Shown here piece by piece: positions 5,250 to 64,000 of a DNA stretch of 64,000 nucleotides; within the stretch, counting starts at the first letter, position 1, and each line of letters starts with the position of its first letter. The translations under genes were made by a program, and so were the position numbers. Under the pieces are notes generated by a model. The model was not told the DNA's origin. It ran no database searches and saw only the letters and a list, made by a program, of their open reading frames with translations. Source of the stretch: Sulfurifustis variabilis (GTDB lineage: Bacteria > Pseudomonadota > Gammaproteobacteria > Acidiferrobacterales > Sulfurifustaceae); the NCBI RefSeq assembly GCF_002355415.1, contig NZ_AP014936.1, positions 1,922,001 to 1,986,000 on the forward strand, written 5' to 3'.

Positions 5250-5622
5250 CGCTCACCCTCACTGCGGCATCCGCCGCCAGATACACGTAACTATTGTTTT
5301 CGAACGTCGCCAGCTTGACCAGCCCTCCGGTGCACGAACCGGCGACGCACCGGCCCGTGTCGGGCTCGTACAGCGCCCCGTGGGTCGCGCAGACGAGGTA
5401 GCGGGCCTCCGCGTCGTAGAAGCGCCCCGGTTCCCAGTCGAGCTCGAGCGCGCGATGCGCACACCGGTTGATATAGGCGTACACCGCGCCCCGATAACGG
5501 ACGACGAAGGCCGACTGCGAGCCGCCTGCCCACTGCACCGTAAAACGCACTCCGGCCCCGCCGTCGGCCAGCGCGTCGGCCGCACAGATCAGGTGCGGCG
5601 CGGAGGACGCAGCCACGCGCAC
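5242..5622 (-). CDS. Small Rieske [2Fe-2S] domain protein
   Basis: 126 residues forming a single Rieske domain. The two ligand pairs are C54-A-H56 and C78-A-T-H81. The cluster-loop cysteines that stabilise respiratory Rieske proteins are absent, so it is of the ferredoxin type. There is no membrane anchor or signal peptide, so it should be cytoplasmic. The substrate or electron partner cannot be told from sequence. GTG start; it overlaps the end of the HAD phosphatase gene by 34 bases and the start of sppA by 8, an arrangement also familiar in pseudomonads. Confidence 0.8.
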   Translation of the reverse strand: MRVAASSAPHLICAADALADGGAGVRFTVQWAGGSQSAFVVRYRGAVYAYINRCAHRALELDWEPGRFYDAEARYLVCATHGALYEPDTGRCVAGSCTGGLVKLATFENNSYVYLAADAAVRVSGD

Positions 5623-6254
5623 ACCTCCGAGAACGTGTCGAGGCAGGCGAGCGGGTCGTGGTTGAGCAGCCGCGCCCGGTCGTGCGCGCCATAGCTCACC
5701 GCGATGCTGGAGAGCGACGCCGCCTTCGCCATCTCCAGATCATAGGTCGTATCACCGACCATCACCGCGCGCTCCGGCATGACGCCCGTGTGCGCCAGGA
5801 TGTCGTACAGCATTCTGGGATGGGGCTTGGATCCGGCCTCGTCGGCGCAGCGTGTGGAGCAGAAGTACACCGACGTCCGGGTGTCGCGCAGCACGCGATC
5901 CAATCCCCGCCTGGCCTTTCCGGTGGCGATCGCCATGCGAAATCCGGCCGCGGCCAGCCCCTCCAGGCCCTCGCGCACCCCCGGAAAGAGCGGCATCTCG
6001 GTCTCGTCGAGGAACAGGAAGTGTTCGCGATACCGTTCCGCGACCCGCTGGCGGGTGTCCGCATCGGTTTCCGGCAGCAGCTCCGCCAGAGCCTCGTTCA
6101 GACCGAGGCCGATGATGTGGCGAACGCGGTCCTCGGTCGGGACCGGCAGGCCCAGGTCCGCGGCGGCCGCCTGAAAGCAGCGCACGATCTTGCGGGCGGA
6201 ATCCATGAGGGTTCCGTCCCAATCGAAGACGATCAGGTCAAACGGCCGGTTCAT
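5589..6254 (-). CDS. HAD-superfamily (Gph-like) phosphatase
   Basis: 221-residue HAD hydrolase. Motif I is FDWDGTLMDS, with nucleophile Asp11 and acid Asp13. Motif II is the Ser/Thr of IATGK, motif III the Lys of SKPHP, and motif IV GDTTYDLEMA. An alpha-helical cap (about 15-85) places it with phosphoglycolate-phosphatase-like enzymes. The substrate is not determined by these motifs. The gene start overlaps the rluC end by 17 bases, which supports co-transcription with rluC. Confidence 0.82.
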   Translation of the reverse strand: MNRPFDLIVFDWDGTLMDSARKIVRCFQAAAADLGLPVPTEDRVRHIIGLGLNEALAELLPETDADTRQRVAERYREHFLFLDETEMPLFPGVREGLEGLAAAGFRMAIATGKARRGLDRVLRDTRTSVYFCSTRCADEAGSKPHPRMLYDILAHTGVMPERAVMVGDTTYDLEMAKAASLSSIAVSYGAHDRARLLNHDPLACLDTFSEVCAWLRPPRRT

Positions 6255-7185
6255 TACGGAGTCCGTTCAGGAGTCGCGAAAGCTCGGGGGGGAGCGCCGC
6301 CTCTACGGCAATTCTACCCCTACCGGAAGGATGCGCGAACCGCAGCGAGGCCGCGTGCAGAAAGAGCCGCCGCAGGCCCAGTTGGCGCATCTCGCGGTTG
6401 AAATCACGATCCCCGTACTTGTCGTCCCCGGCAATCGGGTGGCCGATATGGGCGGCATGGACGCGGGCCTGGTGCGTCCGGCCGGTATAGAGGCGTATCT
6501 CGACCAGGGTGGCCGGACCAAAATGCCCCCGCGGGCTGAACCGGCTCGCCGCCTCCTTCCCCTCGGCGCGCACTTCCACTCGCCGCTCGCCTCCGCGCTC
6601 CGGCCCGCGCTCCAGCGCCGCCCTGACTTCGCGCGGACCGCCGCGCCAACGACCGCGGACCAGCGCGAGGTAGCGCTTTTCGACCCCTCCGGCGCGGAAC
6701 ATACGGTGCAGAGCAAGGAGCACGGAACGGTCTTTGGCCAGGATAAGGCAGCCGGACGTGTCCCGGTCCAGGCGGTGGGCAAGCTCGATCAGGGTGTGGT
6801 GCGGACGGAGCAACCTGACCGCTTCGATCAGTCCCACCGGGACGTTACTGCCACCATGGACGGCGAGCCCGGCCGGTTTATCGAGCACCAGCAGTTCGTC
6901 GTCCTCGTACAGTATCCGGTCATTCAGCCACTCGAACCCGGCTGCCGATACCGGTGAGGGTGCGGCGGCCGTCCGGACGGGAGGCACCCGGATCCGGTCG
7001 CCGGCCTCCAGCCTGTATTCGGGCTTCGCCCGGCCTCCGTTGACGCGTACCTCTCCTCGACGCAGCAGGCGATAAACGTGGCTGCGGGGCACACCCTTGA
7101 GGTGCCCCAGCAGAAAGTTGTCCAGACGCTGGCCAGCACGGGACTCGTCGATCTGGAGAAAACGGACGCCCTTTTGTTCGTCCAC
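6238..7185 (-). CDS. rluC: 23S rRNA pseudouridine(955/2504/2580) synthase RluC
   Basis: 315 residues from GTG at 7185, chosen because its amino end then matches RluC length (GQRLDNFLLGHLKGVPRSHVY follows about 17 residues in). An upstream in-frame extension exists but is not RluC-like. The S4 RNA-binding domain is at about 15-75 and the pseudouridine synthase domain follows, with HRLDRDTSG containing catalytic Asp140. It modifies three uridines around the peptidyl-transferase centre. It is divergent from rne across a 405-base gap, the same arrangement as in E. coli. Confidence 0.88.
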   Translation of the reverse strand: MDEQKGVRFLQIDESRAGQRLDNFLLGHLKGVPRSHVYRLLRRGEVRVNGGRAKPEYRLEAGDRIRVPPVRTAAAPSPVSAAGFEWLNDRILYEDDELLVLDKPAGLAVHGGSNVPVGLIEAVRLLRPHHTLIELAHRLDRDTSGCLILAKDRSVLLALHRMFRAGGVEKRYLALVRGRWRGGPREVRAALERGPERGGERRVEVRAEGKEAASRFSPRGHFGPATLVEIRLYTGRTHQARVHAAHIGHPIAGDDKYGDRDFNREMRQLGLRRLFLHAASLRFAHPSGRGRIAVEAALPPELSRLLNGLRNEPAV

Positions 7186-61203: not shown

Positions 61204-62052
61204 TCAGTCGCCCCGTGCGATGGGCCGGCGGGGATCCGTGATCCATTCGCTCCAGCTGCCGACGTAGAGCCGCGCGCCGGCGAGGCCGGCATGCTCCATG
61301 GCGAGCAGGTTGTGGCAGGCCGTCACGCCGGAGCCGCACATGTGCGCGACCCGATCGGCCGGAATGTCGCCGAGCGCTTGATGGTACAGTCCGCGCAGTT
61401 CCTCGGGCGGAAGGAAGCGCCCGCTCGGCTGCAGGTTGTCCTCGAAGGGGAGACTGATGGCGCCGGGGACGTGCCCGGCCACACGATCGAAAGGCTCTAC
61501 CTCGCCGCGGAAACGCTCCTCGGCGCGGGCATCGAGGAGCACCCCGTCGCCGGTCTGTACAAGACGCTCGACGGCTGCGCTGTCGAGCCAGGCGTCCGCC
61601 CGGATCCGCGGAGTGAAGATCCGGGGCGTCACCACCGGCTCCGCCGTCGTCAGCGGCCGCTTCTCCCTCGACCATGCCCGCAGGTCGCCGTCGAGCACCG
61701 CGACCGCGTCGTGCCCCAGCCAGCGCAGCAGCCACCAGAGCCGCGCCGCCATGGCCCCGTAGCTGTCGTCGTAGGCGACGACCTGCGTCGTCTGGTCGAC
61801 CCCCCACCGCCCGAGCTTCTCGGCGAGGAGCCCGGGATCGGGCAGCGGATGCCGGCCGGTGCTCGCCGTGACCGGCCCGGACAGATCCTCGTTGAGGTGC
61901 GCGTAACGCGCGGAGGGGATATGACCCGCGGCGTAAGCCCGCCTGCCGGCCCCGGGGTCCGTCAGGATGAACCGGCAGTCGAAAACAGCCCAGCCCGGGT
62001 CTTCGAGATGATCCGCCAACTCCCCGGTCGTGATGAGTGTCGTGTACGCCAT
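61204..62052 (-). CDS. sseA: Sulfurtransferase (3-mercaptopyruvate type)
   Basis: 282 residues with two rhodanese domains; active Cys239 in CGSGVTAC, the MST-type loop. N-terminal domain inactive (DDSYGAMAARLWW). It transfers sulfur from mercaptopyruvate or thiosulfate. In the neighbourhood of a DsrC-like protein, it may feed the sulfur-relay pathway. ATG start; 82 bases after the DsrC-like gene. Confidence 0.87.
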   Translation of the reverse strand: MAYTTLITTGELADHLEDPGWAVFDCRFILTDPGAGRRAYAAGHIPSARYAHLNEDLSGPVTASTGRHPLPDPGLLAEKLGRWGVDQTTQVVAYDDSYGAMAARLWWLLRWLGHDAVAVLDGDLRAWSREKRPLTTAEPVVTPRIFTPRIRADAWLDSAAVERLVQTGDGVLLDARAEERFRGEVEPFDRVAGHVPGAISLPFEDNLQPSGRFLPPEELRGLYHQALGDIPADRVAHMCGSGVTACHNLLAMEHAGLAGARLYVGSWSEWITDPRRPIARGD

Positions 62053-62134: not shown

Positions 62135-62473
62135 CTAGTATCCGCCCTTGCGCCGCGATTCCGGCAGGCCGGCGATCCGTCCGCCCTGCTTGCTCGGATC
62201 CTTCGGGAACAGGTCGTAGACGTCCTTCTGCCCCACGTTCGTGCCCCACTTGTCGGACATCGCCTTCACGATGTGCCGGGTGTTCGGCTGCGACTGGTTG
62301 TTGTTGAAGAACTCGTCGCGCAGGTACTCGATGATGTCCCAGTGCTTCTCCGTGAGCGCGATCCCCTCCATTTGCGCCATGTGCTCGGCCAGCTCCCTGC
62401 TCCAGTCTTCCGCGTTGAGCAGGAAGCCGTTGGCGTCCGTCTCGATCTGATTGCCGTTGAACTCAAAGCTCAT
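62135..62473 (-). CDS. DsrC/TusE-family protein lacking both C-terminal cysteines (RspA type)
   Basis: 112 residues, complete fold (MSFEFNGNQIETDANGFLLN, LTEKHWDIIEYLRDEF, HIVKAMSDKWG). Normal DsrC has two Cys in the C-terminal arm, and TusE one at the penultimate position; here these are Gly98 and Gly111 and the end is SRRKGGY. Such Cys-less relatives have been called RspA and suggested to be regulators. Last of the three-gene cluster 63953-62135; promoter not obvious in the 51-base gap upstream. The fold is certain, the role is inferred. Confidence 0.85.
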   Translation of the reverse strand: MSFEFNGNQIETDANGFLLNAEDWSRELAEHMAQMEGIALTEKHWDIIEYLRDEFFNNNQSQPNTRHIVKAMSDKWGTNVGQKDVYDLFPKDPSKQGGRIAGLPESRRKGGY

Positions 62474-62524
62474 AGGTTAAAACCCCCCAATGTCAGTTTT
62501 CTGGAAATTGTTTTCGCAACGAGC

Positions 62525-63205
62525 CTAGCGCGCAGGCATCAGCTCCTGAATATCCTTGTGCGGAATGAACAACCCGCAGCCGAGGTGCCGCATGCGTCCG
62601 AGCCCTTTCTGCTGCAGCCGTACCGACTCCTCGGCGCTCAGGTCGGCCAGCATCAGGCTGCGCGTCGTCAACGACGCCTCGGGTGTGGCAATCGTCTTCT
62701 CGATGCCGCAAAGCATCTTCTTCGGCCGGATCCCCAGGGCGTGCAGACCGGCCAGCGCCTGCGCCAGAAATGCCTTCTCGTCGACGGTCCCGTCACAAAC
62801 GACGTAGCGCGCGAAGATCGCCGGGTGGGTGCTGAGTGCGCGCAGGGTGGAGCTCTCCACGTGCATCGCGTGCCCGGCGACGTCGAGCGTGCGACCGAGC
62901 AGCCGCTGCGCGTCCTCTATCCGGTGCTTGGGCACGCGCACGACGAGCCGGGTGCGTCGCGAGAGGTAGAGCAGATCGTCGGGCCGGTCCGGACGCATCC
63001 AGCCGTTTCCCGAATCGGCGACATGCACCGGGTGCACGCCCGCTCCCTCCTCCTCCGCGATCCACGGCATCACCTCGCCCACCGCCCGCCAGAGCGCGTA
63101 GGCGTGCTCGACGGGAAGCGTCTTGCAGCGAATGGCGTAGGCGACGTCGACGACGTCGTCGGCCACCTGCCGGGGTTCCTCCTGCCTCGAATCCTGCCAG
63201 TACAC
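62525..63205 (-). CDS. Orphan Cas6/Cmx6-like RAMP protein (type I-MYXAN-like)
   Basis: 226 residues. It resembles Cas6 of type I-MYXAN (Cmx6) as I recall it: N-terminal VVDVAYAIRCKTLPVEHAYAL, GNGWMRP, LSRRTRLVVRVP, LFARYV-like FARYVV, KKMLCGI, TRSLMLADLS, and the C-terminal glycine-rich loop GLGRMRHLGCGLFIPHK (201-217) of RAMPs. Candidate catalytic His34 in the first helix. No CRISPR array or other cas gene is in the window. It lies between a helical protein gene (37 bases) and the DsrC-like gene (51 bases), so it may process a non-CRISPR RNA or have become a binder. Confidence 0.72.
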   Translation of the reverse strand: MYWQDSRQEEPRQVADDVVDVAYAIRCKTLPVEHAYALWRAVGEVMPWIAEEEGAGVHPVHVADSGNGWMRPDRPDDLLYLSRRTRLVVRVPKHRIEDAQRLLGRTLDVAGHAMHVESSTLRALSTHPAIFARYVVCDGTVDEKAFLAQALAGLHALGIRPKKMLCGIEKTIATPEASLTTRSLMLADLSAEESVRLQQKGLGRMRHLGCGLFIPHKDIQELMPAR

Positions 63206-63242
63206 GGTCCGTCCTACCGCATTACGGAAAACGCCGCGCGCC

Positions 63243-63953
63243 TCACTGCACGGGCAGCCGGGCGGTCAACGCATCGCGATCGATCCACCAGTCGCTCTGC
63301 ACGAGCACGTCCACGACGTTGCGCAGCCGCGGCAGAAAGCGTGCGGGATCGTTCAGCTCGAGCCTCTTGAACCATTGATCGAAAGCCGCCTGGTCGTGCA
63401 CGTCTCCCTGCCGGCGCGCCACCGTCGCGAGCATCTGGTTCGTATAGAACAGGAGGTTCTCCCGCTCCTTCCCGTCCGGCGCCCTCAGATCGACGACGTA
63501 GTGCGCTACGATCGCGGCCACGGCCGCGCCCTGGGAGTCCGGCGGCGTCTCGTCGATGACGTGCTGCAGCATGGCCACGGTGAGCTCCGGGTCGACCGGA
63601 AACGTGACGGCGAGCCAGATGCCCTGTCCGAGGGCCGCGAGCGACTGCGGCTGATCGGAGGCGAAGAGCACGTCGCAGCACTGCACCGCCTCTTCCCATT
63701 TCTGCGCGGCCGTATAGATGTCGAACGCCTCGCGCGCCGCGTCCCACGCGTCGCTCGTCTTCTCCAGCCGGAGCAGCGTGCGGCCGAGCTGCAGGAGCAG
63801 GTCGGCGCGCCGCGTCGGCTCGAATCCGGCCGGAAGCTCGATCAGCTCCCGGCGCAGGTCCTCGACCTGCATCTCGAGCAGGTGCGTCGGCTCCTTGCGG
63901 TCGTCCGCGTCGTCGGCGTCCATCACGGACGGGTCTTCTCGCAGATATTTCAT
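63243..63953 (-). CDS. Helical-repeat (TPR-like) protein of unknown function
   Basis: 236 residues. Acidic N-terminus (MDADDADDRKEP), then paired helices: LLLQLGRTLLRLEKTSDAWDAA and AAQKWEEAVQCCDVLFAS are TPR-like. No signal peptide. First gene of the cluster with the Cas6-like and DsrC-like proteins. Not recognised by name. Upstream, at 63987-63989, a TAA on the same strand may end a gene cut by the window edge. Confidence 0.72.
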   Translation of the reverse strand: MKYLREDPSVMDADDADDRKEPTHLLEMQVEDLRRELIELPAGFEPTRRADLLLQLGRTLLRLEKTSDAWDAAREAFDIYTAAQKWEEAVQCCDVLFASDQPQSLAALGQGIWLAVTFPVDPELTVAMLQHVIDETPPDSQGAAVAAIVAHYVVDLRAPDGKERENLLFYTNQMLATVARRQGDVHDQAAFDQWFKRLELNDPARFLPRLRNVVDVLVQSDWWIDRDALTARLPVQ

Positions 63954-64000
63954 GTTCCGTTCACGGCCGCGGGCGGGAACGCCCGGTTACTTGGTGACTG

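Follow-up and report, generated by a model that had tools for sequence, protein, structure and literature searches.

A gene in the last two kilobases of the 64,000-nucleotide stretch of Sulfurifustis variabilis DNA analyzed here (the window) encodes a true Cas6 homologue, as confirmed by both profile comparison and predicted fold. This Cas6 belongs to a known family but has a new setting: it resides in a five-gene operon that abuts the dissimilatory sulfite reductase genes dsrAB and that has been kept or lost nearly one-to-one with dsrA across many families. Cas6 family members cleave repeat RNA without a requirement for metal and, to our knowledge, Cas6 has so far been regarded as an enzyme of CRISPR systems only.

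A Cas6 homologue in a five-gene operon beside dsrA

An earlier note on this DNA described three tightly packed minus-strand open reading frames that code for a TPR-like protein, a Cas6/Cmx6-like protein and a DsrC homologue devoid of the C-terminal cysteine, and all three were recovered at their claimed coordinates with intergenic gaps of 37 and 51 bases. The edge of the window splits the operon, with two further operon genes located beyond it followed by dsrA in the reverse orientation. A 20 kb segment around the locus (L031), which reaches 10 kb past the window end, encompasses the following features (window numbering):

61204-62052, just downstream of the five-gene operon: rhodanese (3-mercaptopyruvate sulfurtransferase-like)
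62135-62473, minus strand: Cys-less DsrC-family gene (RspA-like), 112 aa, C-terminus RKGGY, PF04358
62525-63205, minus strand: dsr-linked Cas6-family gene, 226 aa, GTG start, PF09559 and TIGR02807
63243-63953, minus strand: TPR-like helical gene, 236 aa, 11 helices, pLDDT 90.6
63987-64190 (window ends at 64000; L031 9988-10191), minus strand: small gene of 67 aa, conserved in the loci by alignment
about 64199-65326 (L031 10200-11327), divergent from dsrA: tauD-like gene/dsrQ, PF02668 at 3.6e-21
65578-66870 (L031 11579-12871), plus strand: dsrA, by Pfam and open reading frames

The operon thus consists of the tauD-like gene, the small gene and the genes for the TPR-like protein, Cas6 and the Cys-less DsrC. 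Pfam matches and open reading frames in L031 define a sulfur-oxidation cluster on the opposite side, in which dsrA is followed by dsrB, dsrE, dsrF, dsrH, dsrC, dsrM and dsrK; the presence of DsrEFH is a mark of the oxidative Dsr type. An N-terminal tryptophan conserved in 98% of relatives supports GTG as the start codon of the Cas6 gene, and the true start of the tauD-like gene probably lies later than its open reading frame implies. The rhodanese-like gene that follows the operon has a similar counterpart after one other locus (L120).

The tauD-like gene divergent from dsrA corresponds to the dsrQ of Lenk et al. (2012, cited in PMC7596348), with which it shares the same divergent place beside dsrA and a TauD/TfdA fold. 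The open-access literature searched names dsrQ alone, whereas the small gene, the TPR-like gene, Cas6 and the Cys-less DsrC go unmentioned in it. In a genome from another class (G260, L129 7192-8370), a tauD-like gene and the small gene are divergent from dsrA with neither Cas6 nor the Cys-less DsrC (KGGY type) present, an arrangement suggesting that dsrQ and the small gene constitute an older unit.

The Cas6 protein matches PF09559 with E=4e-65 and 219.8 bits (cut-off 26.7) and TIGR02807 with E=7e-42 and 143.6 bits (cut-off 98.85), and is also matched by the PADLOC Cas6 models. Its AlphaFold (AF2) model, obtained with an alignment of 52 sequences, has a pLDDT of 86.8 and contains the double ferredoxin-like RAMP fold. 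The top Foldseek match is 8fcu_B (E=2e-16, TM 0.78/0.82), followed by Pyrococcus Cas6 and Cse3, and all 42 matches at E<=0.001 are Cas6 or Cas6 chains of CRISPR complexes according to their PDB descriptions. The profile search and structure prediction that had been proposed as checks on the Cas6 assignment therefore both bear it out. The more specific term "Cmx6-like" held in part, for TIGR02807, the NCBIfam equivalog model for CRISPR Cmx6, matches the window protein and 51 of 51 aligned relatives at E<=1e-5, but the dsr-linked proteins form a clade separate from the sampled CRISPR Cmx6. Since this model matches every dsr-linked protein tested, they are probably labeled as CRISPR-associated in databases.

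The glycine-rich loop of the window protein reads GLGRMRHLGCGLF, in keeping with the family pattern GxG...GCGxF. His34, the putative catalytic residue picked out in the earlier note, is present in 127 of 128 distinct proteins of the dsr clade and in all seven CRISPR Cmx6, the one exception (L123 from genome G402) having a tyrosine at this position. Additionally, Arg84, Arg90, Gly201 and Gly211 are invariant in the dsr clade and Lys217 occurs in 127/128; Arg90 and Gly211 are likewise invariant in the CRISPR Cmx6, while Arg84 is invariant in the dsr clade only. Features specific to the dsr clade are W48, an insertion SGNGWxRP (SGNGWMRP in the window protein), E143, K163, R182 and K217. Conservation of these His, Arg, Gly and Lys residues is hard to explain had RNA binding been lost, and from the conserved His34 and glycine-rich loop we infer that the window protein may handle RNA. 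Cleavage cannot be essential everywhere, however, as the L123 lineage keeps the locus without His34.

Retention and loss of the Cas6 operon with dsrA

At least 574 confirmed relatives were recovered by scanning about 85,000 species genomes, and the best 80 of these together with the window's own locus were assembled into a set of 81 loci. The best 80 belong mostly to gammaproteobacterial metagenome bins and sulfur bacteria. Partners of cas6 in the 81 loci are the small gene (73), the tauD-like gene (70), dsrA (60) and the TPR-like gene (48), with many of the partner genes missing because contigs end. Gene clustering of the loci without use of models gave the same picture of the neighborhood.

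Co-occurrence was assessed in 370 gammaproteobacterial genomes drawn evenly across the class, 123 of which have PF09559 and 122 dsrA. Both genes occur in 116 genomes, Cas6 only in 7, dsrA only in 6 and neither in 241 (Fisher p=6e-79, a value that overstates independence as the genomes share ancestry). This near one-to-one retention and loss of Cas6 with dsrA across many families is striking, and roughly one third of the sampled gammaproteobacterial species and genera have a Cas6 of this clade. Wherever cas6 and dsrA lie within 8 kb of each other on one contig they are divergent (84/84 pairs). In all seven genomes with Cas6 only, further genes of this operon are present, in most cases close to where a contig ends, and one of the seven has a partial dsrA; in one genome scored as lacking Cas6 (G555), the run of tauD-like, small and TPR-like genes goes off the contig end. 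Among 397 genomes sampled across the phylum, Cas6 is present in 6 of 6 gammaproteobacterial genomes with dsrA and absent from all 33 dsrA-bearing genomes outside that class. Among 96 relatives, dsrA over the cut-off is found in 41 of the 43 genomes with Cas6, with one of the remaining two containing a partial dsrA and the other being 63% complete, and one family (f4) contributes 11 dsrA genomes without Cas6. Even reduced genomes of 1.0-1.1 Mb retain the genes beside dsrAB (L166-L169). Thus, the link to sulfur metabolism that the earlier note proposed is well supported by this co-occurrence, and much of the Gammaproteobacteria shares the neighborhood. Given that the operon abuts dsrAB, both this link and the non-CRISPR status of the gene are firmer than the window alone could show.

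Several other arrangements were observed. At G000:C1:266102-267289 (L124) there is a second copy of dsrAB that is not accompanied by the Cas6 operon, and some relatives also have one, for example L127. In a divergent lineage (L119-L121 and L123), cas6 and the KGGY-type DsrC gene are divergent from dsrA with the tauD-like gene downstream. At least three loci of this lineage contain a conserved protein of ~200 aa that has no family match, and a TusA-like gene adjoins the L123 locus.

Separation from CRISPR systems and the partner proteins

The whole genome from which the window derives contains no Cas1, Cas3-HD or Cas7/DevR, and no CRISPR array was found in the window, in L031 or in other stretches taken from this genome. 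By these markers the gene is an orphan, as had been claimed from the window, and there is no CRISPR operon in the genome that could be using the protein. An array scan of the dsr-type Cas6 loci yielded only an array in L187 and a short tandem repeat in L089, using a simple procedure that recovers the arrays of E. coli and of L112, L113 and L116 (three of the seven CRISPR-type loci). The L187 array (5459-6675, genome G776) has 19 repeats and is situated ~2.8 kb from a detached dsr-type cas6, beside a transposase, with the Cas1 of this genome on another contig. A CRISPR origin in the window's genome was considered and rejected on the negative results for Cas1, Cas7/DevR and Cas3-HD and for arrays in the fetched loci other than L187 and L089. 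Cas1 is also absent from all of the 1.0-1.1 Mb genomes that have the Cas6.

Comparison with known systems leads to the same separation. The Cas6/Cmx6 of Type I-MYXAN systems (e.g., Synechocystis PCC 6714 pSYLB) belongs to the same family with 24-27% identity and shares with the window protein the His of the LP.DH motif, Arg90, Arg133 and the GxG/GCG loop. Those examined are mostly beside cas3, cas8/cmx8, cas7 and cas5, with cas1 in L112 and L113 and arrays near L112, L113 and L116, while the window protein is instead in a dsr operon, has none of these components (cas3/cas8/cas7/cas5, cas1 and an array) nearby, possesses the SGNGWxRP insertion and falls in a separate clade. In a tree with a limited outgroup, seven cyanobacterial Cmx6 fall on one side of a branch with 100/99 support, and the plasmid-borne relatives are solely cyanobacterial Cas6/Cmx6, most of them in CRISPR-Cas loci. 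The closest solved structure is the Cas6 of a type I-B CRISPR-associated transposon (PDB 8fcj/8fcu; profile 7e-21, fold E=2e-16), which differs in belonging to a crRNA-guided transposition complex and, by profile alignment, in having no His at the aligned LP.DH position.

The gene immediately downstream of cas6 encodes a protein that matches PF04358 (E=4e-34) and TIGR03342 (E=7e-31) as well as solved DsrC/DsvC chains, and contains no cysteine at all, in agreement with its initial description as a DsrC homologue without a C-terminal Cys. DsrC and TusE sulfur relay proteins have a redox-active penultimate cysteine (PMC3397948). This residue is absent from the window protein and from 107 of 107 distinct KGGY-type relatives, and both redox positions are replaced in the window protein, as seen when its C-terminus (GGRIAGLPESRRKGGY) is aligned with that of the canonical DsrC of the same genome (ACKYAGLPKPTGCV). 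The counted core lacks cysteine in 94/107 relatives, all 107 end in RKGGY (103) or GKGGY (4), and the invariance of KGGY at of this end suggests that the C-terminal arm may still dock somewhere. A KGGY-type gene lies immediately downstream on the same strand for 101 of the 128 distinct Cas6 genes, with 8 others at edges and 19 without it, and in two genomes where cas6 is detached from dsr (G542 and G733) the KGGY gene has stayed no more than about 8 kb away. RspA is a Cys-less, regulatory homologue of DsrC, and the window protein, with a DsrC fold predicted by profile and no redox cysteines, fits this type; it may, as the earlier note suggested, be regulatory. Genome G000 carries eleven DsrC-family genes, among them the canonical one, the KGGY type and several with further kinds of C-terminus.

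The protein encoded upstream of Cas6 is all-helical in its AF2 model. Pfam TPR matches to this protein are below threshold (best E 0.066), its nearest solved folds by Foldseek are of the TPR/Rap type, all at E>0.01, and the gene is present in about 60% of sampled operons (48/81).

Possible roles in sulfur oxidation and alternative explanations

We favor, tentatively and at slightly less than an even chance, a role for this protein as a domesticated Cas6 that affects dsr expression, either as an RNA-binding protein or as an endoribonuclease, and that is partnered by the Cys-less DsrC. Cas6 would have been domesticated and retained, outside of CRISPR, as part of the locus for oxidative dissimilatory sulfite reductase (rDsr), and would still bind, and probably cut, a specific structured RNA of the host cell. 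This RNA most likely lies within dsr transcripts, such as in the leader of dsrA, and by acting on it Cas6 would match dsr expression to the sulfur available. The Cys-less DsrC may be a partner or a signal input of Cas6, as its DsrC shape could recognize DsrAB or other Dsr proteins while sulfur carriage would be impossible. A fuller scenario, which we consider possible if rather doubtful, is that a Cas6 ribonuclease was taken on, independently of any CRISPR system, when the gammaproteobacterial rDsr locus had yet to spread. It would read structured dsr RNA and cut or cap it, and the Cys-less DsrC would signal to it how the sulfur-oxidation machinery stands.

The region between dsrA and the tauD-like gene contains a dyad, TATCCC-N4-GGGATA, that occurs with at most one mismatch in 27 of 57 regions versus 0.15 expected from dinucleotide shuffles, with no such excess for spacers of 3 or 5. 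The dyad is located upstream of a conserved AGTCTA, which is the complement of the -10-like TAGACT of dsrA, often adjoins a GGGGTG box, and is present in the window's genome as a degenerate copy with 3 mismatches (L031 11336-11351). Its conservation points to shared transcriptional control of both operons, making it a candidate site for some regulator. On the RNA side, the results speak against the favored reading: an Rfam search around six loci detected no known RNA family, only some loci have a long structured leader ahead of dsrA, and no common dsrA leader structure was found among the window's relatives. The one conserved leader hairpin that emerged, with an invariant ACGTACG loop, is present immediately before the ribosome site of dsrA in L056, L064, L065, L080, L090, L095, L105 and L106. 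This hairpin, which is restricted to one Thiogranum-like subclade and shows compensatory change in 2 of 8 pairs, is a candidate RNA target of Cas6. We also considered and rejected the idea that the spacer ahead of the DsrC-like gene encodes a conserved RNA, as lineages differ in sequence there; the window's own family shares TTGTATCATTCGC at this location, which by eye resembles an extended -10 promoter.

The strongest competing explanation, though a less likely one, is that the Cas6 fold has come to bind proteins and serves Dsr enzymes as a scaffold or assembly factor, such as in rDsrAB maturation or DsrC control, with RNA activity being irrelevant. The neighbors are indeed all proteins, one of them a DsrC mimic, the residues W48, SGNGWxRP, E143, K163 and K217 that are absent from CRISPR Cas6 could form a protein interface, and His34 has been lost in L123. 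What this explanation does not account for is the near-complete retention of His34, Arg90, Arg133, Gln198 and the GxG/GCG loop, all shared with CRISPR Cas6, which exceeds the needs of a scaffold. A role in tRNA metabolism, with Cas6 and the Cys-less DsrC forming the RNA-binding arm of a Tus-like thiolation or of a tRNA-processing step, is suggested by the relatedness of DsrEFH/DsrC to the TusBCD/TusE relay for tRNA 2-thiouridine (PMC3397948), by a DsrC-family partner adjoining an RNA-binding fold and by the TusA-like gene beside L123. We regard this role as quite improbable, as the partner has no cysteine of the kind that sulfur transfer needs and the operon tracks dsrA, yet a TusE-type relay also occurs without dsrA.

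Explanations that remain closer to CRISPR fare worse. Cas6 and the helical protein could be the remnant of a Cascade-like complex, with the latter as a Cas11-like small subunit, that now functions as a ribonucleoprotein in defense or otherwise. The helical protein does weakly match the PADLOC Cas11e model (8e-4), for which 9 of 42 relatives give values below 0.5, and 3/42 relatives have a weak match to Pfam Cse2 (best 0.017). These weak matches received no support from profile comparison, as hhalign of the helical protein against E. coli CasB and two relatives gave a probability of 0.2%, and the helical protein is unlikely to be a Cas11. With Foldseek favoring TPR/Rap folds, the helical gene absent from about 40% of operons and no Cas5/Cas7-like neighbor seen, such a remnant is highly improbable. 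Least probable of all is an ordinary crRNA-processing Cas6 working in trans on arrays elsewhere in the genome. In its favor, both sequence and fold are those of Cas6, Cas1 is present in about half of a set of 80 Cas6-positive genomes and the L187 array is close to a dsr-type cas6. Against it, the window's genome has none of the three Cas markers searched for, Cas1 is absent from 36 of 43 Cas6-positive genomes among the relatives and from 39 of 80 others, the presence of Cas6 follows dsrA rather than Cas1, other dsr-Cas6 loci have nothing array-like nearby except the L089 tandem repeat, and the sampled CRISPR Cmx6 form a separate clade.

In the open-access literature, with subscription papers outside the scope of our search, we found no description of a dsr-linked Cas6 or its operon and nothing on a Cas6-DsrC pair, Cmx6, a stand-alone Cas6 in such a setting or RspA. 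The dsr locus has overlooked adjoining genes that are testable in cultured sulfur bacteria, and the "CRISPR-associated Cas6/Cmx6" labels in sulfur oxidizers are probably misleading. This clade of Cas6 is a widely conserved, standard companion of sulfur-oxidation genes with no visible CRISPR role. If it does act on RNA, then dissimilatory sulfur oxidation, a major step of the sulfur cycle, would be subject to control at the RNA level, and the clade would exemplify a CRISPR ribonuclease that has been domesticated for metabolism.
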